DNA of 64,000 bases, taken from positions 53,842,920 through 53,906,919 of the forward strand of contig CM037861.1 in NCBI GenBank assembly GCA_021292105.1, written 5' to 3'. The notes beneath the pieces were generated by a model that was not told the DNA's origin, searched no databases, and saw only the letters and a program-made list of their open reading frames with translations. Position 1 is the first letter of the stretch. Every line of letters starts with the position of its first letter. Positions 26,710 through 62,462 of the stretch are shown one piece after another. A program made the position numbers and the translations under genes. This DNA is from Anadara kagoshimensis. Taxonomy: Eukaryota > Mollusca > Bivalvia > Arcoida > Arcidae.

Positions 26710-26775
26710 ATACATGCACTGTTTTAGCCCCTTTTAACCCCTTAATTATGTCAACATCCAGAATTAAAAAAGATA

Positions 26776-27725
26776 TAGCCCAAGAGCTAGTGGGGTTTGA
26801 AATATGTGTCAATGGCCAAAAGCTTTGAAGGTTGTTTCTGATAGAAAAATGTCTGTAGTTTTCGAATTTGGGCGTCTTGTGAATGAACTCGTTTCCGATT
26901 TTTTTTCAGACGCGAGTTTTTACACTAGAATCGCATTTTTCAGCCGGTTTTTCGGTAATTTGATAATTCTGCATTATGGACGCGATATGGCCTTAAAATG
27001 TCTTATTACTGATGCGGTTATCAAGAATTATGATCATTGTTGACATTTAAGTTAAAAACTTCTTGATACATTTCAGATTTTTTTTAAAATAACTATTTTA
27101 GGAAAAAAATAGACCAAAAATTTTGCGTTTTTAATATTTTGCCCTCTTTTATGTCTTATAAAAAAATAATAAAAGCATTTAAGTGAAATGTTTTACCATA
27201 TTGTCACAGCCTAATGTGTTTTGCATTCAATAAAAGTAGCTGCATATCATTTGGTAGGAAATTGCGGCACCCACAGTGGAAAAACTTTCCCCTACCCCAA
27301 AAATTGCAAATTTCTCAAAAAATCGATCTTTACTACAAATTTTGCTATTAGTTGCCATACTGATTGTTATACCGTGTAAGCTTTAATACTTGGGTGACAA
27401 CATTGAAGACCTCTAACTAAAAACTTCTTGTTAAGCATTCAATCTCAATTTTGTGGCCAATTTTAAACAACCGAGTTTTGCGTTTTTACTTAATCTTTAT
27501 TCGTTAAAGTCTTGTAGCGCATTCAAAAAAAGCCTGATTATCAATATACTATTTTATTTAGAATCCCTGATGTTTGTGCTTTATTGTGCAAGTATAATGT
27601 ATAACACAATCGTCACACAAACCCTTTCACCACAATTTATTCTTCCCCCTACCCCATATGCAATAAATAAGCGAGTTCGCGAGATATTGATTTTACACTT
27701 GTGCGTTCTCAGGCAGTGAGATTTT
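26776..27725 (+). repeat. Left ~950-bp terminal inverted repeat
   Basis: Reverse-complementary to 32,873-33,822. The outer ~650 bp is almost identical, and a 79-codon open frame (26,804-27,043) encodes the same peptide in both arms. Differences there are mostly one-base changes in T or A runs (T8/T9, T4/T3, A6/A5) plus CACAGTGG against CACGTGG. The inner ~250 bp is clearly more diverged. The open frames are probably incidental. The arm may carry promoter sequence for the gene that starts about 500 bp further in. Confidence 0.9.
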
Positions 27726-28216
27726 AAACACGGTAGAGTGTTATAACGTAAATTTGTACTTGAAACATATAGTAAATTACGCTGTTAGCTTGTTTATTCA
27801 ATGCTTTGATTTTTTGTATTATTAAGCAATGATAGTGCCACGCCCTTTTGTATGACTCGGCAGATGGCGCTGCGCAAAGCGTTTGTGTTACGTTTTCTGT
27901 CATTGCAAATCACACGTGGTTGCAATTATAGATACTTTCATATGGTTGTTGTTTATGATAAGTAAGAAAAAACTATTCACCCCTTTTTTCTATTGTTTTG
28001 TTACCGTTTATATTTCGTGTGAACAAGTTGATTTTATTTAATATTTGTTTTTAAAAAGAATCCGTGTTCACAATAGAATCAATGAAGTTTTGACGCAGAT
28101 AAGTAATCTGTTTGTTAATTCTATTTGATTCCGTGACTGAATTAAAATCACTGTAAATAATATTTTGCGATTTGTTTGTGATAACTCATTGTCATTTCAA
28201 TTAGAAGTGTTGCAAA

Positions 28217-28708
28217 ATGGCCAGCACACGGCTGGATACATCTAAGGGGAAACAGATATTACAGGGCGATAGCACAGATGAAACAAATCTTGTTTGTTGC
28301 CTTCATGTCGATAAACGTTTCCAAGATATAGAAATTAAACCTTTTGATGAAACAACATGGAGTAAAGTGGCAAAAGTTGCTGAATATCGTCTTTCGAAAA
28401 CAAAATCCCACAAATATAAACAAATTTGTCAAGATCTTCCTCAAAACTTTGATCCTAAAACCAATGGTTATCACAGAATGTGTTACAAGAACTTCACTGC
28501 TGTCTCAAAAAAAGAACTAGAGTCTTTTTCCACTGTAGAAGTAGAAGAAGTTTCTTACACTTTAAGATCCCACACTGAACATTTATCGGACGAAACTTCC
28601 TCCTCCGGTATTTTTCTTCCCGTATGTTTGTTTTGTGGCCTCCTGACGAAGGGTAAGAAAAGGGAACAGTTAGGCAATTGTGAAAGTTCGGAAGCGGGAG
28701 AAAAATAA
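28217..28708 (+). CDS. Transposon protein, N-terminal segment (zinc modules)
   Basis: 163 codons starting at an ATG in good context (AAAATGG). It encodes the N-terminus of the transposon protein. Visible features are Cys27-Cys28 with His86-x2-Cys89 (GYHRMC), then CLFCG with Cys137 and Cys140. The partners of the second pair, YHHSC, lie in the next segment. This gives two similar C/C...YH-x2-C zinc-binding units, as expected for a DNA-binding head (inference). The frame ends at a TAA just after GAGAAAAA, while family-like sequence continues at once in the -1 frame. A one-base loss in the A run, real or a consensus error, is the simplest explanation. A donor-like GGTAAG at 28,652 is probably not used, because coding resemblance continues across it. 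Confidence 0.75.
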   Translation: MASTRLDTSKGKQILQGDSTDETNLVCCLHVDKRFQDIEIKPFDETTWSKVAKVAEYRLSKTKSHKYKQICQDLPQNFDPKTNGYHRMCYKNFTAVSKKELESFSTVEVEEVSYTLRSHTEHLSDETSSSGIFLPVCLFCGLLTKGKKREQLGNCESSEAGEK

Positions 28709-28719
28709 AAAATGCTGCA

Positions 28720-31700
28720 ATGGTTCTGGGTGATACAGATATGATTGCCAGAGTTTGTGATATAGATTTTGTTGCTAAAGAGGTTAAATATCACCATAGC
28801 TGCCGAAAACATTACTTAAATCTTTCTGAGAGGTGTATACCCGGGTCTGCTAAGACAGAATATGGCAACATTAGGCTAGGACACGAAAAAGCATTTAAAT
28901 GGTTGACCGAATACATAAATAAAAACGTTATAGCACAAGGTCAAGCTGTAACAATTGCCTCCTTGTATGAATATTACACTACAATGCTGATGGACATTGG
29001 TCTTGATTGCTCCTCATATACCATCCAGACTTTAGAAGTAAAACTTCTAAATCACTTCAAAGATGATATTTGCATGAGTAAAATAGGTAAACGACAAGGC
29101 AAAATATTATATCCAAGCTTTCTAGATACAGATCAGATTATAGGTTTCCATAATACGTTTTTATTAAATTCCAAAGTCACTGAAGCTGCATACCAGTTGC
29201 GAAATACAATATTAGAAATGTCAAAGACATGTCCCCAATTACAGAACCCATTGACTGTAAATGAAATACAGAAAGGCCAAGCTAACCCCCCAGACATACT
29301 TATGCAGTTTTTTAAAACTCTATATACAGGGTCTTCAACAAAAGAACCTTCTGAAAGAATGAATAGATGCATCAGTTCAGCAGCAGATGATGCTTTGTTT
29401 GCTGTAACCAATGGCGAAATAAAGCCATCAAAACATTTATGTCTTGGACTGGGTTTTAAAAGTATGACTGGTAGTAGGAAAATTATTGAAGTACTAAATC
29501 ATTTAGGGCACTCAATAAGTTACCATGTTGCGGAGACACTTGAAACTGAACTTGCAATGACAATATCAGACAGGAATCTGCTAACTCCTGATGGATTACT
29601 GAAAATTCCAAACTTGTCAACCGGAACGGCTTGGGATAATTATGATGAAAACACCGAGACTTTGTCTGGAAGCGGAACTTTGCACGACACAGTTGGAATA
29701 TGTTACCAGAACACTCCCGACGAACAACATTCAATGGGGGACTCTCTAGGAATTCCACAAGTATCCACTACACAAACAAAGTCATTGAAACGTAAACGCT
29801 CTTTAGATATTGAGGACCCTATTTTAGAATCTTACAGAAAGCGTCCAAAAATAACAAAATTTCAATATCCCGTAAAAGCAATTTCGGACCCCTCTAATTT
29901 AAATGAGACCAGAAAAAGGGATTTAACATGGGTGATTTGTCACCATTTATTTTCTAATATACCCATGTGGTCAGGATGGAATTCTCTAATCACAGTAGAT
30001 CATCTACCAGAGCAAGTGATAGGCTATATGGACAATATAAGTTTGCCACCGACCCGATTAGATGTGGTGTCGGAAACATTACGTCGATCGCAGATTGTGG
30101 CACGGGAATGTTCTGATAACACAGCAATTGTCCACTATGATCTTGCCATAGCTAAACCAGCGATGCAGATACAATCGGAAGAATCACCAAAGTACGACAA
30201 TATTTTCATATGTTTTGGTCCTTTCCATATAATGTTGGCATATTTTGGCGCTCTTGGTCACTTAATTGAGGGCTCTGGCGGACCATATGTGCTAACCGAG
30301 ACCAAAGTTCTGGCAGAAGGGTCTCTAAATGGGTTCATAAAAGGGAAGCATTATAACAGATGTCAGAGAATGCATACTATATTATCTCTTTCTTTCCGTA
30401 TTCTCCATTTTCGGTCTTTTCTGGAAGAGCATGGTCAGATATCTGAATCTTTATACGAGCAGTTAGAACAATTCATTACAAATACTTCTTCAGAAGAAAT
30501 GCAAAACGTTCTAGAGCAAGAAAATTTAAAATCTATTTTTGATATGTATGAAGCCTTTTCCAATGACACAAGAACTGGAAACCATGGATCAACAGCACAG
30601 TATTGGTTTATGTATATTGAATTAGTTGAACTTCTGTTACTTTTCAGTAGATCTTGTCGAACTAACGATCTACCTTTATTTACTTACTGCTTAGGAAAAA
30701 TGTGTCCAGTATTTTTTGCAGCTAATAGACCAAACTATGCAAGATGGATGACACGCTATCACTTAAATTTACTTAACATTGATATAAGTCATCCACAAGC
30801 AAGAGCAATGCTTGAGAATGGTGGTTTGTCTATAAGACGCTCGAATAAATCATTTTCCAGAATTCCAGTGGACATGACACTTGAGCAGACAATCAATGCT
30901 GATGCTGCATCTCGTCTAACTGGCATTTCTGCATTCAGCCAGTCATATACGGCCAGGCGAAGATGGATGATTACACGAAGTGTCCGCAGTGCTATCGTTG
31001 GTGCTCTTCTCTCAAAAACTGGAATCCGGAAAAAGGGGGATGTGAATCAAGAGCTCAAGCCGTCGCGAATTCAGAGAGATAATAAAGATGTAAGTAGTTT
31101 GATCGACTGTATTAAAGCAACTAAGAATCCGTTTGATACAGAGATAAGAAATGAGGATCTCCTGTGCATATCAACTGGTAACAGAGTCAAAGATGATGTG
31201 AAAAATGAGATACTTAGTTGTGTAAAATATGGCGAGCAATCTTTTCACGACTTTAGAAATGGCTGTTTTGCAGATCCCTCTAGATTTGAAAAACCTATTA
31301 CAAGAAACAAATTGCGCACTTTTGCATCTTTGGCACTTAAGGTTCGGGTTGAGGTGAAAGCAAAGAAAATCATACAGCTACAGTGTTCACGTGATCTATT
31401 TGGTAGGCTTTTGTTTTTGGCAACGACAACAGATATAAACTTGCAGAAAGTTTTTGAATATCCTCTCACTCCCGTGCCGCCAGCTCTTGCACAAATTGAC
31501 GGGAATATGAATAAAACCGACAAATCAATACTTATGAAAATGTTAGAGAGCAAGGCTCATTCTGATCCTCCAGCTGCAAATCAAATTGATGCTTATGTCG
31601 TTGATGCCATGTTCCTTATACAGTTGCTGTCAAACCTACCAGATACTTTTGAAGGTGTAGCCAAAACCATTCTCAAGCTATTATGTAAACTGGCAAAAGA

Positions 31701-32745
31701 AATACACTTTGTTTGTGACACATATGTCCATCCATCCATCAAAGATATTGAAAGAGATATGCGAGGAGAGAGCAGTGGACCAGATATTGTAGTAATGGGC
31801 CCAAAACAAAAGCGACCTCATGATTTCCGTTCAGCTTTGAAATCTGCTAATTTCAAGAGGTCATTACTATCGTTTTTGCTACAAGAATGGAAGAATGATA
31901 ACTATGCTGACATTCTTGCAGGCCATACATTATATTATGCAACAGAGGACCACTGCCATCAATTCTATTGCGAAAATGATGCAACAGTAGTGTGCAGTGA
32001 AGTGTCCAATCTTGCCTGTACCCACGAGGAGGCAGATACCAGGATCACCTTACATGTGCAATACATTGCCTCAAGGTCCGATTCTCCTAACGTAGTGGTT
32101 AGAGCAAATGACACGGATGTAATGGTTATTTTATTGTATCATTGTCACCAAATACATGCAAACATATGGATGGATTCAGGCACTGACGGCACCAATACTA
32201 GGCGATTTATTGATCTAACAAAACTGTCCAATGAAATTGGGATCGAAATGTGCCAAGTTCTTCCAGCTATCCATGCTTTCACTGGATGTGATTATACTGC
32301 AGCATTTCTTAGAAAAGGTAAAATTAGGCCTTATAATATCGTTGAAAAAAGTGCAACTTTCAGAAGCGTTTTCTCAAATATTGGAACAAATCAAAGAGTT
32401 AATGAAAGAGATATGAAGGTAATGGAATCTTTTGTCTGTGAAATGTATGGCAAAAAAAACATTAAAACAGTAAATGAGGCACGATTTGCCATTTTCAGAG
32501 AGAAATACGCTCCAACAAATCAAACTGACCCATTAGAAAAGCTCAAAGGAGCCGATCCGAGTTCACTACCTCCTTGTAAAAGTGTTCTTGTTCAGAAAAT
32601 CCTCCGAACAGAATATGTTGCATATTTTTGGAAACATGCCAATTGCAGTTGTCCTACATTAAATACTCCACAAGAAAATGGAAAAAAGAAAATAACAAGT
32701 ATGCGATTCAATGGTTTGAAGGTGAACAGATTCCGAAAGATATAA
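28720..32745 (+). CDS. Transposon protein, main segment with FEN1/XPG-like nuclease
   Basis: 1,341 codons from the first ATG of this frame; the frame is open from 28,684, so translation probably enters from the upstream segment (see 28,217). Features in order: YHHSC at 24-28 completing a zinc module; basic KRKR and RKRPK around 357-378, a likely nuclear signal; a long middle region I cannot assign. Then come the nuclease motifs: VVDAMFL (Asp962), FVCDTYVHPSIKDIE (Asp1000), HEEADTR (Glu1104, Asp1106), NDTDVMV (Asp1131, Asp1133) and HAFTGCDYTAAF (Asp1191), followed by GKGK. Order, spacing and context mirror the seven metal-binding acids of FEN1/XPG nucleases (family knowledge). It is the likely endonuclease of the element (inference). 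The frame runs off at 32,745 into an unlike tail; the true C-terminus lies in the -1 frame. Confidence 0.85.
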   Translation: MVLGDTDMIARVCDIDFVAKEVKYHHSCRKHYLNLSERCIPGSAKTEYGNIRLGHEKAFKWLTEYINKNVIAQGQAVTIASLYEYYTTMLMDIGLDCSSYTIQTLEVKLLNHFKDDICMSKIGKRQGKILYPSFLDTDQIIGFHNTFLLNSKVTEAAYQLRNTILEMSKTCPQLQNPLTVNEIQKGQANPPDILMQFFKTLYTGSSTKEPSERMNRCISSAADDALFAVTNGEIKPSKHLCLGLGFKSMTGSRKIIEVLNHLGHSISYHVAETLETELAMTISDRNLLTPDGLLKIPNLSTGTAWDNYDENTETLSGSGTLHDTVGICYQNTPDEQHSMGDSLGIPQVSTTQTKSLKRKRSLDIEDPILESYRKRPKITKFQYPVKAISDPSNLNETRKRDLTWVICHHLFSNIPMWSGWNSLITVDHLPEQVIGYMDNISLPPTRLDVVSETLRRSQIVARECSDNTAIVHYDLAIAKPAMQIQSEESPKYDNIFICFGPFHIMLAYFGALGHLIEGSGGPYVLTETKVLAEGSLNGFIKGKHYNRCQRMHTILSLSFRILHFRSFLEEHGQISESLYEQLEQFITNTSSEEMQNVLEQENLKSIFDMYEAFSNDTRTGNHGSTAQYWFMYIELVELLLLFSRSCRTNDLPLFTYCLGKMCPVFFAANRPNYARWMTRYHLNLLNIDISHPQARAMLENGGLSIRRSNKSFSRIPVDMTLEQTINADAASRLTGISAFSQSYTARRRWMITRSVRSAIVGALLSKTGIRKKGDVNQELKPSRIQRDNKDVSSLIDCIKATKNPFDTEIRNEDLLCISTGNRVKDDVKNEILSCVKYGEQSFHDFRNGCFADPSRFEKPITRNKLRTFASLALKVRVEVKAKKIIQLQCSRDLFGRLLFLATTTDINLQKVFEYPLTPVPPALAQIDGNMNKTDKSILMKMLESKAHSDPPAANQIDAYVVDAMFLIQLLSNLPDTFEGVAKTILKLLCKLAKEIHFVCDTYVHPSIKDIERDMRGESSGPDIVVMGPKQKRPHDFRSALKSANFKRSLLSFLLQEWKNDNYADILAGHTLYYATEDHCHQFYCENDATVVCSEVSNLACTHEEADTRITLHVQYIASRSDSPNVVVRANDTDVMVILLYHCHQIHANIWMDSGTDGTNTRRFIDLTKLSNEIGIEMCQVLPAIHAFTGCDYTAAFLRKGKIRPYNIVEKSATFRSVFSNIGTNQRVNERDMKVMESFVCEMYGKKNIKTVNEARFAIFREKYAPTNQTDPLEKLKGADPSSLPPCKSVLVQKILRTEYVAYFWKHANCSCPTLNTPQENGKKKITSMRFNGLKVNRFRKI

Positions 32746-32849
32746 GACTGAAGATGGACAGTACAACTTTTACAGAGGATGACATGGGAGAAGATGAGGA
32801 TGTACGTGAATCCGACAGTAGTGATAGTGAAGACACTGATGATGAATGA
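32688..32849 (+). CDS. Transposon protein, C-terminal acidic tail (frame-shifted)
   Basis: About 53 codons in the -1 frame relative to the main segment, starting at the heptamer A AAA AAG (32,682-32,688). It reads AIQWFEGEQIPKDI, then an extremely acidic end with DDMGEDEDVRESDSSDSEDT. The WFEG-x-x-IP stretch and the acidic tail look like the natural end of the protein, whereas the main frame ends in a basic, low-information tail. Joined across both breaks the protein would be about 1,544 residues. Either a base was lost from the A run or ribosomes shift here; the first is likelier because a similar break occurs at 28,705. Confidence 0.6.
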   Translation, partial: ENNKYAIQWFEGEQIPKDIRLKMDSTTFTEDDMGEDEDVRESDSSDSEDTDDE

Positions 32850-32872
32850 AATTATAATTCTGAATGAATACG

Positions 32873-33822
32873 AGTTATTTTGAACCAGCCTGTCTAAGAG
32901 CACTAACACAGTATATCCCGTGAATTCGCATATCGTTAGCATATTGGGGTAGGGGAAGAATAAATCGTGGGTAATGGGTTAATGTGACGATTTTGTTACA
33001 CATTATACTTGCACAATAAAGCACACACATCAGGGATTCTAAATAAAATAGTATATTGATAATCAGGCTTTTTTTGAATGCGCTACAAGACTTTAACGAA
33101 TAAAGATTAAGTAAAAACGCAAAACTCGGTTGTTTAAAATTGGCCACAAAATTGAGATTGAATGCTTAACAAGAAGTTTTTAGTTAGAGGTCTTCAATGT
33201 TGTCACCCAAGTATTAAAGCTTACACGGTATAACAATCAGTATGGCAACTAATAGCAAAATTTGTAGTAAAGATCGATTTTTGAGAAATTTGCAATTTTT
33301 GGGGTAGGGGAAAGTTTTTCCACGTGGGTGCCGCAATTTCCTACCAAATGATATGCAGCTACTTTTATTGAATGCAAAACACATTAGGCTGTGACAATAT
33401 GGTAAAACATTTCACTTAAATGCTTTTATTATTTTTTTATAAGACATAAAAGAGGGCAAAATATTAAAAACGCAAAATTTTTGGTCTATTTTTTTCCTAA
33501 ATAGTTATTTTAAAAAAAAATCTGAAATGTATCAAGAAGTTTTTAACTTAAATGTCAACAATGATCATAATTCTTGATAACCGCATCAGTAATAAGACAT
33601 TTTAAGGCCATATCGCGTCCATAATGCAGAATTATCAAATTACCGAAAAACCGGCTGAAAAATGCGATTCTAGTGTAAAAACTCGCGTCTGAAAAAAAAT
33701 CGGAAACGAGTTCATTCACAAGACGCCCAAATTCGAAAACTACAGACATTTTTCTATCAGAAACAACCTTCAAAGCTTTTGGCCATTGACACATATTTCA
33801 AACCCCACTAGCTCTTGGGCTA
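32873..33822 (-). repeat. Right ~950-bp terminal inverted repeat
   Basis: Inverted copy of 26,776-27,725. It begins 24 bp after the stop codon of the acidic tail. Two AATAAA motifs read in the gene's direction (32,959-32,964 and 33,015-33,020), so the arm probably supplies the polyadenylation site. Confidence 0.9.
32959..33020 (+). terminator. Candidate polyadenylation signals of the transposon gene
   Basis: Two canonical AATAAA hexamers, at 32,959 and 33,015, lie 110 and 166 bp after the last in-frame stop. Only the motifs are seen; use is inferred. Confidence 0.45.
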
Positions 33823-34980
33823 ATATATTCAAGCTGTGACAGCTGTCATACAAATATGTGATAATCGGATAGATAATAGGTCATCCCAGTTTGAAACATC
33901 ACAAAAATAATTCAGCATTTCAATTTGAATTTTAAGATGAAGAATTTACACCCTATTAATTTATTGAAAGGAATTAAGTGCAAATCATTTTATCATTTGC
34001 TAAAAGTGTGATATACCAGTGGCATTTGTGTTACTTTATTATATCACGTTTAGTTGTATTGCATTACTGATTACATGAAGCGTGTGTGAGGTTGGGGAGA
34101 ACATGGCATTACATAGGTCATACATCATGTTTCATTACTTAACAAACAGGTTCATGTGGTATTAAAAAAGTTGGAAAATGGATGATAAAAAAGATTGAAA
34201 TAAAATTACTGAAATAAGTATGACTATAATATATTTTTATGAAGGTAATATAACAGTGTATAGATATACAGTACACAAAAATGTTTCATTTTGGAGAAAA
34301 AACAACTTTTAAAACTTGCACTTTCAGAATTCCGATCACCGGGAGATAAGTGCGTTAACCTATACGGAACTCAATGCCATGTGGTGTGCCCAAACAAAAA
34401 GTGTTACATGTAATTTTCTTGTCATTTTGTTTGAGATGTTCACAGATTGATATGATACAGAGGTGATAAAGCATGCAAAGAAAACAGGGTACAAAGAAGG
34501 GTTATGACGTGTTTAAAATTAAAAAAATAAATAAATAAATAAATAAATAAAAAAACTAAAATGAAATAATAAAAAAAACAGACCACAGTATAAAAGTGTA
34601 ATATAAAATCATGAAACAATTTTTGCTGTATTTGTTCATTGTGTATGTGTTTCGGTATATTATGTTTATTCCTATGTTATACATATTTAATAAATCCAAG
34701 TCTAAGCATTTTATATTCTTATTTAATATTGCCTTATGCAAGTACATTGAGTATACCCATGCAAATAGAGTTGTACATTCAATAATGATTCATGACTTGA
34801 AACCAAGGTTATATCTTGAAAGTAGAAATGACTATTTTATTTTTCATAAAATAAAGTTTCCAAAATTGTACAACTTTTGAATACTTTATTCTATAAAAAA
34901 TCAAAATTAGCACATGGTCCCGTTTACGATGTGTTGGGTCATGACTCAACAACTCTGAGCTGCTTCAGAAACTCGACGCA
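33823..34980. other. Intergenic DNA right of the transposon
   Basis: AT-rich, with an (AAAT)n run at 34,521-34,551 and an open frame at 34,611-34,880 of biased composition (many I, Y, F and K) that I do not regard as a gene. Confidence 0.4.
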
Positions 34981-44387: not shown

Positions 44388-46735
44388 GGAACCAAAATAA
44401 CCCATACCAATCCATGTCCATAATCCCAAAGTAAAATTAAAATAACCCATACCAATCCATGTCCATAATCCCAAAGTAAAATTAAAATAACCCATACCAA
44501 TCCATGTCCATAATCCCAAAGTAAAATTAAAATAACCCATACCAATCCATGTCCAAATCATAATCCCAAAGTAAAATTAAAATAACCCATACCAATCCAT
44601 GTCCAAATCATAATCCCAAAGTAAAATTATAATAACCCATACCAATCCATGTCCATAATCCCAAAGTAAAATTAAAATAACCCATACCAATCCATGTCCA
44701 AATCATAATCCCAAAATAAAATTAAAATAACCCATACCAATCCATGTCCAAATCATAATCCCAAAGTAAAATTTAAATAACCCATACCAATCTATGTCTA
44801 AATCATAATCCCAAAGTAAAATTAAAATAACCCATATCAATCCATGTCCAAATCATAATCCCAAAGTAAAATTAAAATAACCCATACCAATCCATGTCCA
44901 TCATCCCAAAGTAAAATTAAAATGACCCATACCAATCCATGTCCATAATCCAAAAGTAAAATTAAAATAACCCATACCAATCCATGTCCATAATCCCAAA
45001 GTAAAATTAAAATGACCCATACCAATCCATGTCCATAATCCCAAAGTAAAATTAAAATAACCCATACCAATCCATGTCCATAATCCCAAAGTAAAATTAA
45101 AATAACCCATACCAATCCATGTCCTAATCATAATGCCCAAGTAAAATTAAAATAACCCATACCAATCCATGTCCAAATCATAATCCCAAAGTAAAATTAA
45201 AATAACCCATACCAATCCATGTCTAAATCATAATCCCAAAGTAAAATTAAAATAACCCATACCAATCCATGTCCATAATCCCAAAGTAAAATTACAATAA
45301 CCCATACCAATCCATGTCCAAATCATAATCCCAAAGTAAAATTAAAATAACCCATACCAATCCATGTCCAAATCATAATCCCAAAGTAAAATTAAAATAA
45401 CCCATACCAATCCATGTCCAAATCATAATCCCAAAGTAAAATTAAAATAACCCATACCAATCCATGTCCATAATCCAAAAGTAAAATTAAAATAACCCAT
45501 ACCAATCCATGTCCAAATCGTAATCCAAAATTAAAATTAAAATAACCCATACCACTCCATGTCCATAATCCCAAAGTAAAATTAAAATAACCCATACCAA
45601 TCCATGTCCAAATCATAATCCAAAGTAAAATTAAAATAACCCATACCAATCCATGTCTAAATCATAATCCCAAAGTAAAATTAAAATAACCCATACCAAT
45701 CCATGTCCAAATCATAATCCCAAAGTAAAATTAAAATAACCCATACCAATCCATGTCCAAATCGTAATCCAAAAGTAAAATTAAAATAACCAATACCAAT
45801 CCATGTCCAAATCATAATCCAAAGTAAAATTAAAATAACCCATACCAATCTATGTCCAAATCATAATCCCAAAGTAAAATTAAAATAACCCATACCAATC
45901 CATGTCCAAATCATAATCCAAAGTAAAATTAAAATAACCCATACCAATCCATGTCCATAATCCCAAAGTAAAATTAAAATAACCCATACCAATCCATGTC
46001 CAAATCATAATCCCAAAGTAAAATTAAAATAACCCATACCAATCCATGTCCAAATCATAATCCCAAAGTAAAATTAAAATAACCCATACCAATCCATGTC
46101 CATAATCCAAAGTAAAATTAAAATAACCCATACCAATCCATGTCCAAATCATAATCTTAAAGTAAAATTAAAATAACCCGTACCAATCCATGTCCATAAT
46201 CCCAAAGTAAAATTAAAATAACCCATACCAATCCATGTCCATAATCCAATGTAAAATTAAAATAACCCATACCATCCATGTCCAAATCATAATCCCAAAG
46301 TAAAATTTAAATAACCCATACCAATCCATGTCCATAATCCCAAAGTAAAATTAAAATAACCCATACCAATCCATGTCCATAATCCAAAGTAAAATTAAAA
46401 TAACCCATACCAATCCATGTCCATAATCCAAAGTAAAATTAAAATAACCCATACCAATCCATGTCCATAATCCCAAAGTAAAATTAAAATAACCCATACC
46501 AATCCATGTCCAAATCATAATCCCAAAGTAAAATTAAAAAACCCATACTAATCCATGTCCATAATCCGAAAGTAAAATTAAAATAACCCATACCAATCCA
46601 TGTCCAAATCATAATCCCAAAGTAAAATTAAAATAACCCATACCAATCCATGTCCAAATCATAATCCCAAAGTAAAAGTAAAATAACCCATACCAATCCA
46701 TGTCTAAATCATATTCCTAGAGCAAAATTAAAAAC
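44388..46735. repeat. Minisatellite array, 45/50-bp units, ~49 copies
   Basis: The unit reads AATAACCCATACCAATCC, then ATGTCC(AAATC)ATAATCCC, then AAAGTAAAATTAA. There are two length classes, differing by AAATC (45 and 50 bp), plus occasional one-base variants. Where 45-bp units run together, the minus strand stays open and encodes a 15-residue repeat (GLWTWIGMGYFNFTL); 50-bp units break it, so no gene is supported. The unit matches the left end of the REP element, a copy of which begins where the array ends (about 46,740). Confidence 0.95.
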
Positions 46736-56600: not shown

Positions 56601-59600
56601 ACCCTTTGGTCATTATTTACATTTGCATTACTACGTATAGATTGTATCTAAATAAGGTTATGATAGATTTGACTCATTTAAGATCAAATTCTTCCCAACA
56701 ATAGAGGAGTTCTCGAGTCTTTCGGTACCAATCTAAAGGAGGAGGAACTTTACTTTCCTTACTTGGATTGGATATCTAAACTTCACAAAATCCATGCAAG
56801 GAGAGGTTTAAAGAAGTTTCCTATAAGCATACTTCTAAAGCATTATCAGTAATTATACCACTAATTTGACACTCACCAAAGATGTCCTTAAGTCTTATTT
56901 AGATAAAGTCTATTATTCGTTTAGCATCAATCAAATGAAGATGCTAAGACAATCTAAAGAATTACTTGAACAACTTGTTTCTTATAATTTATGTGGTGTA
57001 AAAAGTATAAAAATCATTTGGTTTTTTCTACATTTTACCCTACTATCCCTCATTCTAAATTGAAAGAACGTCTGAAATAAATTAGTCAGTAAGGATATAC
57101 TATGTAAATATGTAAGTCTGAACAGGTTTTCTTGTAGTGTTGTCAAGCACTATGCGAATTATAAAGATATATATTGAAAAAACCATCAACGAAATGTTTG
57201 ATTTCTCTACTTTATCCACCTTTCTCTCATTCTAGTGAAAGAACATTAAAACAAAGTATCCACTTGTTTATCTTTATCATTGTTTTCTAATCACAATATT
57301 ATTCATAAACTTATGTTGATGTCTCTGTTTCTAAAATTATCCTGGATATATTTGACGTCACATATTCACATGTTACTTTCATTATCAATTTTGGTTTCAC
57401 ATAAAAACCAAACAAACCAAACCATGTCCAAATCACAACCCTAAAGCAAAGTAAAATTTGAAACTGACAATTTATTTAGGTTAAACATTGAACTTCCACC
57501 AGGGAAATTGGGAAGTGCTGGGGGGGGGGGGGGGGGGGGGGGGTAAGCATCACCTCTTTTTGGCTAGCTTCGCCCGCCACGTGTGTAATCATGTAATCAA
57601 AATTAGGAGTGAAAGGATCATGGAATTATGGAACAATCATGGACATAAACATGTTTCTAGATATTGGACATATTTTAGTTAATGTATTTCAAATTTCAGA
57701 GAGTAAGACGAATGATGCTCTCCACTTTTGTGACGATTTACCAACGTGGATGTATGGCAGTTGGAGTCAGGTATATAAATAGTGTATATTGCGGATGTAA
57801 ATAAATAGTATTTACCTTCCATCGATTATTACTCTAATTTATAGACTTTTCTATAAATGATAACAATGATTAATAATTTATATATTATTATAATTAACAA
57901 GACAAGAATTGTTTACCCATCAGGAGAACCCAGTCTCACTTCTCCGATGAAATTATCACACGATTAAAGAAATTTGACATTTCAAAGTTTTTACTTTCTT
58001 TTAGAAAAATATTTAATCTGATATCATTAATGGATATCCAAAACTGGAGAGGATTTGTTGGATAATAGAGGTGGTTGTATGTGAATATGATTTCATCCAA
58101 TGAAATTTAGTTTAATGTTATTTGTTTTTTATTCTCTAATTTGGTAATAATCTGGTTTTTAGAATGAAGTACCATACTTAATTTTTGGTCATATAGCCCA
58201 GGATCTGAGAATTTAAAAATTTAGAGATACATCAAGATCTTTTTGTTTAGTTGGGTCGAGGATTGAAATATTTTTATTTATTAAAATATCTTTAAAATGA
58301 AATTTAGGTCACGCGTAAAAATTTATATTCCATTTTGCAAAGTTTTTTCTTAATTTTTTATTGCAATTTGAACGAACAGGTATGTTTTTGTTTGGTTGGA
58401 TATACAGTCAAACCTGTGTATAAATGCCACCCAAGGAAATCAGTAAAAATGTCCTTTAAAGGCAGGTGGCCTTAATACACAGGTTCAATAATATGAATAA
58501 AAACAATTGGAATACAATTCTGCTGGCCTTTATAAGCAGGTGACCCTTATAAAAAGCAGGTCTTTTAAGTCAGGTTGGACGGTAGATACTAGTGATCTGG
58601 TCCGTATTATGTTTTTGAATATTCGCATAAATACACCACTGTTTGTATTGGAATAGTTGGGACCTCTATTAGTAGTACTATGACTACATCACTTCACTTG
58701 ACATTTGTCTGTCCATAGTACGAACTTTTGTAAATAATGTCCTAATATGTGTTTTCCTCTATGTACCTTGTCTTGTTTGGCTGTTCTATCATTGAGTTAT
58801 ATTGTGCCATGTTCTTGGTTACGTTGGCTATACCAAGTACAAATTACAAACGTTTCTTTGTTAATTTCTCTTTTCTATTTTACAACTTAAAAAGGTTGAA
58901 AATTGAGATAATAAATCAATATTTTTCTGTTTAGGGGACATTTCCTCTTAGGCACTTTGACACAAATGAATCTTATTAAAATTAAATTTCTTTTAAATTG
59001 TCACTTTATTTCATTTTTTAAAATTTCTGATGGAGTTGGACAAGTACAATGTTTTCCGTTGCAAATTTCCCTCGTCGATTTTAATTGCTTGATACGAAAA
59101 ATAGTTCCACGATCTATAAAGGCCACCCAGGGTCACCAGTAAAATGGATTCTCAAAGTAAATAGCTCTTATATAAAGGTTCAAATGACATAAATAACGAG
59201 CACTTGGCATACAAATCAACTGGCTTTTAAAAGCAGGTCTCTCTTATATAAAGGTGGCTTTAAAAATGGGTTCTAATTTATAAGCTTTCTATTTTAAAAA
59301 AAACAATTGCAATCAGTATATGACCCATAAATTTGATTATATTTTTTATTTCAGTGTTCCAAATCATGCGGTGTAGGTAAATCAATTCGTACAGTGATTT
59401 GTGTCAGAAATTTTGGTAACGGCACCATTGAAGAATTCAATTCTTCAGCTTGCAGATATTTGGAACAATTGGAACTTGTTAAAAACTGTGAATTGATGAA
59501 ATGCCCAGTAATAAAGGCATTTGATATAAACTTTTACCAAATAAAGACATTCAGTCCTGTAAATATACTAGCGGGGATGAAGGCATATATTTTCCAAAAC

Positions 59601-60164
59601 ACATCACTTATAGTGGAATGTAGAACTAAAATGAGATACAAAAAGCGTGTACAGTGGTTAATGGATGGGAAACTTCTTAAAAACGGTCGATACTCAAACG
59701 TTAGAATATCTAAAAAGAAAAAGTTGAAGATACTGCAAGACTTTACTAATGATAAGATTACAGTATTTACATGTCACGTTGGTAACTTTAGTGTTGATAG
59801 TAAAGTTTTTAGAATCAAATATTTAAATAGGAATGTCTCATACCCAATAAAGACAAACACAACAGTGAAGGATCCGTCAGATAGAAAACATAAACATTTA
59901 AACGTGTCGTTAACACCATGGTCATCTTGTAGTCAGCTTTGTGGGCTTGGTATTCAAACCCGAGACTTTAAATGTGAGATAATAACGGACAATTACATCC
60001 AAGAATTTCCGAAATCGAATTGTCCATATCAGGAATTAAACATAACACTTAATAAAACATGTTATATTCAGCCATGCGTGAAGTGGACGTATACGCTCTG
60101 GACTCCGGTTTGTATATTACTATTCATCCTTATTTTGTATTTGTATAAATGTTTACCGGAGTAA
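47545..60164 (+). CDS. EGF-TSP1-Ig-TSP1 single-pass membrane protein (split gene)
   Basis: Seven exons join in phase into 447 codons: 47545-47644, 48500-48541, 49539-49601, 55530-55657, 56431-56560, 57700-57770 and 59355-60164. Each internal border has AG and GT. Order: signal peptide (KIFETTPVIFFWFILNLF); two short linker exons; an EGF-like exon (six Cys, 72-109); a Cys-rich exon (112-154); then TSP1 starting WMYGSWSQ|CSKSCGVG; an Ig domain (VEC...VQW...FTC); a second TSP1 (WSSCSQLCGLG); a transmembrane helix (about 426-442); and a six-residue cytoplasmic tail. The architecture implies a cell-surface adhesion or recognition protein (inference). I cannot name an orthologue. The exon chain is my reading; splice phases agree throughout, which is the strongest support. 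A homologous last exon lies at 61,737. Confidence 0.75.
48500..48541 (+). CDS. Exon 2: 42-nt linker exon
   Basis: Between TATTTCAG and GTAAGG, phase 1 at both ends. Encodes YRCLMKKKVVNTI within a junction-completed reading. Short but flanked by good sites. Confidence 0.5.
48650..48810 (-). repeat. REP interspersed repeat (minus), in intron 2
   Basis: Reverse complement shows AAAAACAAACATATAAAATT, AAGTAAATACTTTAAA, GAGACCGAGTGCTCCAGAAG and TAACCTAGCTAC in REP order. The right end is truncated. Confidence 0.65.
49539..49601 (+). CDS. Exon 3: 63-nt linker exon
   Basis: Between TTTATTATAG and GTAATT, phase 1 at both ends. Encodes DHMNLSLAERKQECIVNELY, with one Cys. The donor is weaker than the others. 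Confidence 0.45.
49664..49940 (+). repeat. SINE-T copy, 5'-truncated, in intron 3
   Basis: Begins at the B-box (GATTCGAACCCCGACCGAGT) 63 bp after exon 3 and runs to GATATAAGTGAAATATTC, then TTGACTGGGA. Confidence 0.75.
50361..51345 (-). pseudogene. Mariner-like transposase remnant (minus)
   Basis: On the minus strand, in several frames and from right to left: a degraded helix-turn-helix part (SLEDEDSSVLTPT), VTVDETLL matching the TxDET catalytic stretch, SPKPKKFKTQPSAGKV, a damaged WDAKG segment, then NLLDQLRTVILKKRRGKLS, QQANARVHT (usual form QDNAxxHT, so the second catalytic Asp is altered) and the C-terminal FPKLK...FEHRSSKCI part. These are recognisable mariner/Tc1 transposase motifs in the right order. 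Many stops and shifts show it is dead. The left end near 50,363 (GGCAAGTCAATAAAAAACCG) may be one terminus. Confidence 0.8.
51563..51915. mobile_element. Foldback MITE with ~115-bp arms
   Basis: Arms 51,563-51,680 and 51,800-51,915 are imperfect reverse complements. They share CAATCTGATTA(A/T)AATCA, ATCTCTCACTTGCT, TGATATAG, GTGGGAGATCTGAG and a GGGTCATATG-like inner end. The loop is about 120 bp. Confidence 0.8.
52440..53300 (+). repeat. ~190-bp tandem repeat, 4-5 units
   Basis: Each unit has CCATAGG(G/A)(T/C)CCAATGT, AAACTAT, GGCCATGTTTT, AGATC.GAAAAATTT.GGCAA, CATCATTCCTGTAAAGTTTG and CAATTTGCTTCAGT. Units are moderately diverged; the last is incomplete. Confidence 0.85.
53300..53415. repeat. 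(GACG)n-rich short tandem and element end
   Basis: GACGGACGGACTGACGGACG-like repeats at about 53,327-53,370, just before the right end of the composite element. Confidence 0.8.
53765..54010 (+). repeat. REP interspersed repeat, near-complete
   Basis: AAAAACAAACATTCCAATCT, AACACGTCAACTTCCACTAG, GACACTCCGGGAGGTTAACG, GTCTAGCTAGTTTCACTTAC, then AATCAAAATTGAGAAAGAAA. Confidence 0.75.
54597..54770 (+). repeat. REP interspersed repeat, diverged
   Basis: Starts AAAAACAAACATACTAATGC; the core is eroded (GGTGCTCCGAAAGGGTAG remains). Confidence 0.65.
55095..55345 (+). repeat. Two REP pieces in tandem
   Basis: 55,095-55,145 is a core fragment (GACCGCGTGCTCCTAAAGAA, then CTCCTGTTTAGCTAC). 55,196-55,345 is a second, left-complete copy (AAAAACAACATATCAATTCA to GAAACCGGGTTCTCCAGAAG). 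They lie about 185 bp before the EGF exon. Confidence 0.65.
55530..55657 (+). CDS. Exon 4: EGF-like domain
   Basis: Between TTAAACAG and GTGAGT; phase 1 in, 0 out. Six cysteines with the EGF ending CECKTGYTGKFC. One N-glycosylation sequon (NMT) precedes the C-x-C. It is the clearest single exon of the gene. Confidence 0.8.
56431..56560 (+). CDS. Exon 5: Cys-rich segment
   Basis: Between TTTAATTTAG and GTAAGT; phase 0 in, 1 out. Four cysteines (VCNYTCEKQQ, then SCPHLVGEDCRLL). No named domain recognised. Confidence 0.65.
56695..57270 (+). pseudogene. Penelope-like reverse transcriptase remnant, in intron 5
   Basis: Across frames it reads YLDWISKLHK, a short RFIA-like region, TLTKDVLKSYLDKVYY, MLRQSKELLEQLVSYNL and then FSTLYTTIPH-like sequence followed by LKERLK. 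This is the finger-palm layout of Penelope-like or related reverse transcriptases. A second short copy of the FDFSTL and ERTLKQS motifs follows at about 57,190-57,260. Frameshifts and stops make it inactive. Confidence 0.6.
57330..57680 (+). repeat. REP copy with poly(G) expansion, plus inverted fragment
   Basis: 57,405-57,680 is a near-complete plus-strand REP (CCATGTCCAAATCACAACCC, GAACTTCCACCAGGGAAATT, CGCCCGCCACGTGTGTAATC). Its 'gtgctccggaagggtaag' core is replaced by GTGCTG followed by a 24-G run. 57,330-57,400 is a minus-strand REP right-end fragment (complement of GACGTCAAATATATCCAGG). The copy ends ~20-30 bp before exon 6. Confidence 0.75.
57520..57543 (+). repeat. 24-nt G homopolymer
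   Basis: Uninterrupted G run inside the REP copy. A frame across it gives poly-Gly and is not a gene. Confidence 0.95.
57700..57770 (+). CDS. Exon 6: start of TSP1 repeat
   Basis: Between AAATTTCAG and GTATAT; phase 1 in, 0 out. Ends WMYGSWSQ, the tryptophan-rich start of a thrombospondin type-1 repeat whose CSxxCG lies in the next exon. The same junction fits both terminal exons (59,355 and 61,737). Confidence 0.7.
57905..58020 (-). repeat. REP fragment (minus), in intron 6
   Basis: Reverse complement has AAGTAAAAACTTTGAAATGT, CGTGTGATAATTTCATCGGA, GAGACTGGGTTCTCCTGATG. Core and left part only. Confidence 0.6.
58405..58582 (+). mobile_element. MITE-1 copy 2, in intron 6
   Basis: Same element as 3967-4145: CAGTCAAACCTGTGTATAAA at the left and CAGGTTGGACGG at the right, flanked by TA. 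178 bp. Confidence 0.85.
59114..59273 (+). mobile_element. MITE-1 copy 3, degraded
   Basis: Internal sequence matches (CTATAAAGGCCACCCAGGGT, TTATATAAAGGTTCAAATGA, TATATAAAGGTGGCTTTAAA). Both termini have been lost. Confidence 0.65.
59355..60164 (+). CDS. Exon 7a: TSP1 end, Ig, TSP1 and transmembrane helix
   Basis: Acceptor TTTATTTCAG, phase 0, 269 codons. CSKSCGVGKSIRTVICVR completes TSP1. The Ig-like domain has Cys and Trp at the usual places. A linker ending KDPSDRKHKHLNV leads to a second TSP1 (WSSCSQLCGLG...CYIQPC), then LWTPVCILLFILILYLY as transmembrane segment and KCLPE at the end. Several N-x-S/T sequons fit an extracellular domain. An ATTAAA at about 60,286 could serve polyadenylation. 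Confidence 0.85.
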   Translation, partial: CSKSCGVGKSIRTVICVRNFGNGTIEEFNSSACRYLEQLELVKNCELMKCPVIKAFDINFYQIKTFSPVNILAGMKAYIFQNTSLIVECRTKMRYKKRVQWLMDGKLLKNGRYSNVRISKKKKLKILQDFTNDKITVFTCHVGNFSVDSKVFRIKYLNRNVSYPIKTNTTVKDPSDRKHKHLNVSLTPWSSCSQLCGLGIQTRDFKCEIITDNYIQEFPKSNCPYQELNITLNKTCYIQPCVKWTYTLWTPVCILLFILILYLYKCLPE

Positions 60165-61736: not shown

Positions 61737-62462
61737 TGTTCAAAAACATGTGGTGGCGGAGTCATGAAGAGGTCAGCCATTTGTGTCCGGTTGCAGGCTA
61801 ACGGTACATTTGTTCCCACTGCTGATTGGGAGTGTGACAATTTGACACGTGACTCTATTTTTAAACAATGCAATTTATATAACTGTTCTGTTCGGGAGAT
61901 TGTTAAGAAAGACATAGAATTTTTCCAGTTGGATACTGTTCCGAAAGTCTACTTGTATGTGGGTATGAAAGCATCAGTATTAACTAACTCAAATCTAGTC
62001 ATTACCTGTCGTACTAGGGGTATAAATATAAACAAAATTCGTTGGTTTAAAAATGGAATACGTGTGCGGAGTGTAAGGAATACAAGAATTTCCAAAAAAT
62101 GTAAACTTCGGATAAAATCTGTGTCTTTAGCAAATGAGGGTAAATACTGCTGCCGGTATAAATCACATGAGGAGTGTTTATATCTTAAAGTCCATACAAG
62201 AAGTAAAGTGGTTAAAGTTAACCGTATCCGACAGTTGTATCAGTACCATGACACGTCTGATCAATTCATAAAAGACCCGTTTGATAGAGAAAAACGACGT
62301 CTTAATATCCGTCTGTCAAATTGGACATGCGTACTAGGCGAGGAAGTAAGAAAATACCTTTCATGTGAAATTATCACAAATTTTTATATTGAAGCGTTTG
62401 ACACTAAGTTTTGCCATAAAAACTATTTTGAGGAAGAAATAGAACTTAGACGAAGATGTTAG
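61737..62462 (+). CDS. Exon 7b: alternative or duplicated last exon, no transmembrane helix
   Basis: Acceptor ACTTTTAG, phase 0, 241 codons. It is homologous to exon 7a along its length: CSKTCGGG TSP1 part, Ig domain (ITC, IRWF, EGKYCC), linker KDPFDREKRRLNI, and CEIITNFYIEAF. The last TSP1 is damaged: the WSSCSQLCG stretch is shortened and one Cys pair is lost. A stop follows directly after ELRRRC, so no transmembrane helix is made. The Ig motif is better kept than in 7a. No separate upstream exons lie between 7a and 7b. It could be an alternative terminal exon giving a soluble 419-residue form, or a decaying duplicate. Confidence 0.75.
   Translation, partial: CSKTCGGGVMKRSAICVRLQANGTFVPTADWECDNLTRDSIFKQCNLYNCSVREIVKKDIEFFQLDTVPKVYLYVGMKASVLTNSNLVITCRTRGININKIRWFKNGIRVRSVRNTRISKKCKLRIKSVSLANEGKYCCRYKSHEECLYLKVHTRSKVVKVNRIRQLYQYHDTSDQFIKDPFDREKRRLNIRLSNWTCVLGEEVRKYLSCEIITNFYIEAFDTKFCHKNYFEEEIELRRRC

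Follow-up and report, generated by a model that had tools for sequence, protein, structure and literature searches.

The window analysed here, a 64,000-nucleotide stretch of contig CM037861.1 from the bivalve Anadara kagoshimensis (assembly GCA_021292105.1), contains a complete DNA transposon with terminal inverted repeats (TIRs), which is 7,047 bp long and extends from position 26776 to 33822. Its termini read TAGCCC...GGGCTA, with the trinucleotide ATA on either side as a target-site duplication. Reading of the open reading frames (ORFs) bore out the original prediction, made from the bare sequence, that the element has a single gene. The product of this gene combines a predicted DDE/RNase H-like transposase core with a C-terminal nuclease domain of predicted FEN/XPG/EXO1-like fold. 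We interpret the element as an autonomous-type TIR transposon of the Academ superfamily, of the AcademX (nuclease-encoding) type, with a 1545-residue DDE-plus-nuclease protein; taken jointly with the mechanism proposed below, we assign this reading a probability of roughly 0.88. Position numbers refer to the window and residue numbers to the main ORF of 1341 residues (Table 1).

Gene and reading frame

An unbroken frame of 1545 residues, starting at element position 1442-1443, is present in three of 20 fetched copies of the element (L014, L018 and L024). In the window copy this frame is not whole but split into an ORF of 163 residues with Cys/His motifs that, as judged by eye, are possibly zinc-binding, the main ORF, and an acidic tail reaching position 32849, the first and last of these lying in other frames than the main ORF. 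Comparison of 20 copies uncovered 70 indel events, 43 of them in homopolymers of at least four bases (such runs account for 12% of the element's length), and 21 substituted sites, ten of these in L023. The concentration of indels in homopolymers, together with the paucity of substitutions, suggests that some frame breaks may be assembly errors, but the window copy also has a four-base deletion outside any homopolymer. A Pfam match of the first ORF to dynein light chain (E 0.084) and a match to cyclodipeptide synthase (E 0.55) were both taken as chance, and the NCBIfam profiles gave no match at E ≤ 1.

Table 1. Coordinates of the transposon features in the window
Feature	Position	Strand	Basis
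Left target-site duplication, ATA	26773..26775	.	read from sequence; exact 3-bp duplications in 18 of 20 complete copies
5' TIR, starting TAGCCCAAGAGCTAG	26776..27687	+	inverted-repeat comparison, arm-to-arm alignment
N-terminal part of transposase gene, 163 residues	28217..28708	+	out of frame with remainder in window copy
Main ORF, 1341 residues, predicted DDE transposase and FEN-like nuclease	28720..32745	+	ORF list, relatives
Predicted DDE/RNase H-like domain with helical insertion, residues ~298-733	29611..30918	+	structure prediction, structural comparison, conservation
D309	29644	+	near-invariant in relatives
D474	30139	+	near-invariant in relatives
E722	30883	+	near-invariant in relatives
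Predicted FEN/XPG/EXO1-like nuclease domain, residues ~934-1317	31519..32670	+	predicted fold, structural comparison, conservation
Acidic C-terminal tail, other frame in window copy	32746..32849	+	sequence against P0001 and the 1545-residue frames of other copies
3' TIR, ending CTCTTGGGCTA	32913..33822	-	inverted-repeat comparison, arm-to-arm alignment
Right target-site duplication, ATA	33823..33825	.	read from sequence; copy comparison

A predicted DDE/RNase H core in the middle region

The original prediction saw no DDE motif in the element and took the nuclease as its only candidate transposase, which, if it mobilised the element, would act by a chemistry outside the named superfamilies. 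Structure prediction, structural comparison and conservation instead point to a DDE/RNase H-like domain in the middle region of the same ORF, an outcome that the original prediction had itself named as refuting it. The model of this domain matched the P element, Transib, ISCth4, Hermes and RAG1 in a second structural comparison, and its putative DDE residues are kept in nearly all relatives covering the respective site (D309 in 113/114, D474 in 124/125 and E722 in 113/114). Among the 72 relatives in which D309, D474, E722, D962, E1104, D1131 and D1191 are all aligned to a residue, 71 keep the DDE residues, the exception being the weak hit P0089. Two results weigh against this assignment: Foldseek alone gave no significant match for the predicted domain, and the Pfam and NCBIfam profile searches recovered no named DDE family. 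A sub-threshold match to DUF6589 in the Pfam scan (residues 486-725) overlaps the predicted domain; our literature search found no paper for DUF6589.

The C-terminal nuclease domain

The seven acids of the nuclease domain (D962, D1000, E1104, D1106, D1131, D1133 and D1191) occur at the residues originally assigned to them in the ORF starting at 28720, separated as described by gaps of 25 and 58 residues, and their conservation ranges from 87/90 (D1191) to 99/101 (D962) of the relatives covering each site. In 68 of these 72 relatives each of the seven sites has aspartate or glutamate, with P0051, P0069, P0088 and P0089 as exceptions. The family call found no echo in profile searches, as the Pfam scan returned no XPG-N or XPG-I match at E ≤ 1 in the element protein, five relatives and one other copy. 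The predicted fold resembles FEN1/EXO1/XPG, and together with the strong conservation of the acids it makes the identification as a FEN/XPG-like nuclease well supported; the domain is best viewed as having the predicted fold and acids of this PIN-like family without being a member at the sequence level. The retention of the acids in so many relatives argues that the nuclease is under selection and hence has a selected role.

Such selection would also suit the idea that transposition is catalysed by the nuclease, with no catalytic part for the domain upstream of it, as would the two negative search results for the DDE domain. In the second structural comparison, however, that domain resembles known DDE transposases. 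Its D309, D474 and E722 are conserved no less strongly than the nuclease acids, and one relative, P0069, retains the DDE residues but has serine in place of two nuclease acids. Furthermore, proteins of FEN fold are not known to carry out strand transfer, which we also count against this idea. Since a DDE domain is predicted in the same protein, the claimed new transposition chemistry is not supported; we rejected the nuclease as sole transposase, and consider a non-catalytic upstream domain highly improbable.

Relatives carrying both domains

The alignment search for distant relatives scored the 7,990 candidates with the most words in common. Judged by the extent of the BLAST alignments, 74 of 136 relatives contain both domains, the most divergent of them being P0133 at 25% identity. 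The alignment is confined to the DDE part in 22 others and to the nuclease part in 16, and in 24 it covers neither part completely; many of the partially covered relatives are shorter proteins. The union of a DDE transposase and a nuclease in one chain is conserved over deep divergence. This conservation, together with the acids at all seven nuclease sites in 68/72 relatives, speaks against the nuclease being a passenger, or a regulator acting on host repair intermediates, that is dispensable for transposition. The loss of two nuclease acids in P0069 would be in keeping with a passenger, as would the variable accessory nucleases and helicases of other DDE lineages, such as Kolobok (PMC9587614), but on balance we regard dispensability as unlikely.

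Inspection by eye shows that the distant relatives P0133 (1601 residues) and P0136 (2209 residues, 22% identity) both have the nuclease motifs, preceded by a transposase-like region. It also picked out Cys-rich CXC-like stretches near the C-terminus of both and an OTU-protease-like stretch in P0136. Two relatives, P0002 and P0047, are filed under bacterial metagenome-assembled genomes (Candidatus Thiodiazotropha and Desulfocapsa), a filing that we suspect to reflect animal-host contamination of the assemblies.

Element ends and copies in the genome

Inverted arms are present as originally described, but when the outermost 910 bases at the two ends are aligned with each other (98.3% identity over 888 columns), their length comes out at about 0.9 kb instead of ~950 bp. 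A genome-wide count of the ends, which had been proposed as a check, showed that the terminal 25-mer recurs exactly 205 times in forward and 205 times in reverse orientation in the genome (1.115 Gb, 36 contigs), and the reversed-pattern control gave zero exact matches in the same genome. Judged by exact ends, there are thus about 200 copies. Of the first 100 of the 410 places, 96 form 48 convergent pairs by hand count and four are unpaired; the pairs are spaced by about 7.0 kb in 47 cases and by 5.4 kb in one, the sole shortened copy among these 48.

A search with the left end yielded 449 first-look candidates, of which the best 40, the window copy included, were scored; the match starts at 26775 or 26776 in 26 of these. 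Twenty of the other 39 were fetched, and the 19 with both ends (L025 has one only) make 20 complete copies with that of the window. Exact 3-bp target-site duplications border 18 of these, against a chance expectation of roughly one in 64 copies, somewhat higher in AT-rich DNA; L011 has a 4-bp duplication and L013 none as cut. Indels aside, the pairwise identity of the complete copies has a median of 99.99% and a minimum of 99.8%, figures biased to close copies by the choice from the 40 best-scoring of 449 candidates. As far as sampled, this near-identity points to a very recent, unusually young and uniform burst.

Joining the flanks of L010 brought up no unoccupied relative of its site, matching only L010's own two flanks, and these matches overlap by the 3-bp duplication. 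Two neighbouring copies in opposite orientation, L009 and L011 (G000:C4, ~27.22 and ~27.32 Mb), have one flank sequence in common, ATACAAAATATA, as local duplication or inversion between copies would leave.

Other features of the window

Two ORFs are probable host exons: 59394-60164, which encodes a thrombospondin type 1 domain and gives a weak, sub-threshold Ig-like match, and 61764-62462, with Ig-like domains. A satellite-like array (44394-46733) contains ~49 copies of a 50-bp unit.

Proposed mechanism

We propose that the ~1545-residue protein begins with a region rich in Cys and His, continues with a DDE/RNase H core interrupted by a large helical insertion, and carries the FEN/XPG/EXO1-like nuclease towards its C-terminus. 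At the TAGCCC termini the DDE core would nick the transferred strand, which it would then join to the target at positions 3 bp apart, thereby accounting for end cleavage, strand transfer and the fixed 3-bp duplication. The fused nuclease would most likely remove or cut the non-transferred 5' strand, or act on a branched intermediate. The boundaries of the element, its duplications, the number of its ends, the near-identity of sampled copies and the conservation of both acid sets were observed directly; the two domain folds are predictions, and the catalytic steps and their division between the domains are inferred. In a more specific version, which we advance only tentatively, the FEN-like domain would be an integral second catalytic centre that makes or trims the non-transferred-strand cut, one eukaryotic polypeptide would do the work that Tn7 divides between TnsA and TnsB, and this pairing would determine the short, 3-bp duplication by which AcademX differs from AcademH.

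The claim of a new transposition chemistry thus gives way to a different question: why is a flap-type nuclease held in the same chain as a DDE transposase? With about 200 copies by exact ends, near-identity where sampled and some unbroken frames, the family holds promise as a model for experiments on how AcademX elements transpose. The biochemistry of AcademX did not turn up in the literature consulted, and no search was aimed at it.

Comparison with known systems

The Academ superfamily and its AcademX lineage reportedly go back to Kapitonov and Jurka in 2010 and Kojima in 2020. The AcademX nuclease is of the XPG type; our literature search found no paper naming Academ together with XPG. According to the Discussion of PMC10045372, duplications are 9-10 bp in AcademH and 3-4 bp in AcademX, a difference related to the encoded helicase and nuclease, respectively; a nuclease-encoding lineage with short duplications had therefore already been published, contrary to the idea of a chemistry outside named superfamilies. 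Academ is listed among the superfamilies with a DDD/E transposase in PMC9587614. The present element has the same attributes: 1) a DDD/E transposase, on the prediction of an RNase H core, D309/D474/E722 and the structural match; 2) a nuclease, on the predicted FEN/XPG fold and the acids, instead of the helicase of AcademH; 3) duplications of 3 or 4 bp (3 bp in 18/20 copies, 4 bp in one and neither in one). The combination therefore fits an already described lineage, with no difference established, the match being to the published description and not to reference Academ sequences. In bivalves an Academ expansion has been reported, the Academ elements in the library of that study averaging 5,565 bp (PMC10294476).

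A DDE transposon with a nuclease could alternatively represent an unnamed superfamily separate from Academ, given that the likeness rests on description, not on direct comparison with a reference Academ protein, and that among solved structures the P element transposase (6pe2) comes closest to the predicted middle domain. The nuclease and the duplication length nonetheless match the AcademX description in PMC10045372, and we judge a separate superfamily quite improbable.

The element's predicted DDE domain has 8% identity to 6pe2 over the structural alignment. The P element is not known to have a nuclease domain and generates 8-bp duplications, in contrast to the 3 bp seen here. EXO1, FEN1, XPG and GEN1 resemble the C-terminal domain in its predicted fold and in having an active site of seven acids, and the middle motif of EXO1 is also E-x-D; identity in the structural rows is 10-14%, a sequence search of the PDB gave no match better than E 0.33, and the element's nuclease differs in being fused to a transposase. 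Tn7 likewise pairs a nuclease, TnsA, with a DDE transposase, TnsB, but as two separate proteins and with a different nuclease fold. KolobokE, KolobokD and KolobokP (PMC9587614) similarly combine a DDE transposase with an unrelated accessory nuclease, whose fold differs from that of the element described here.
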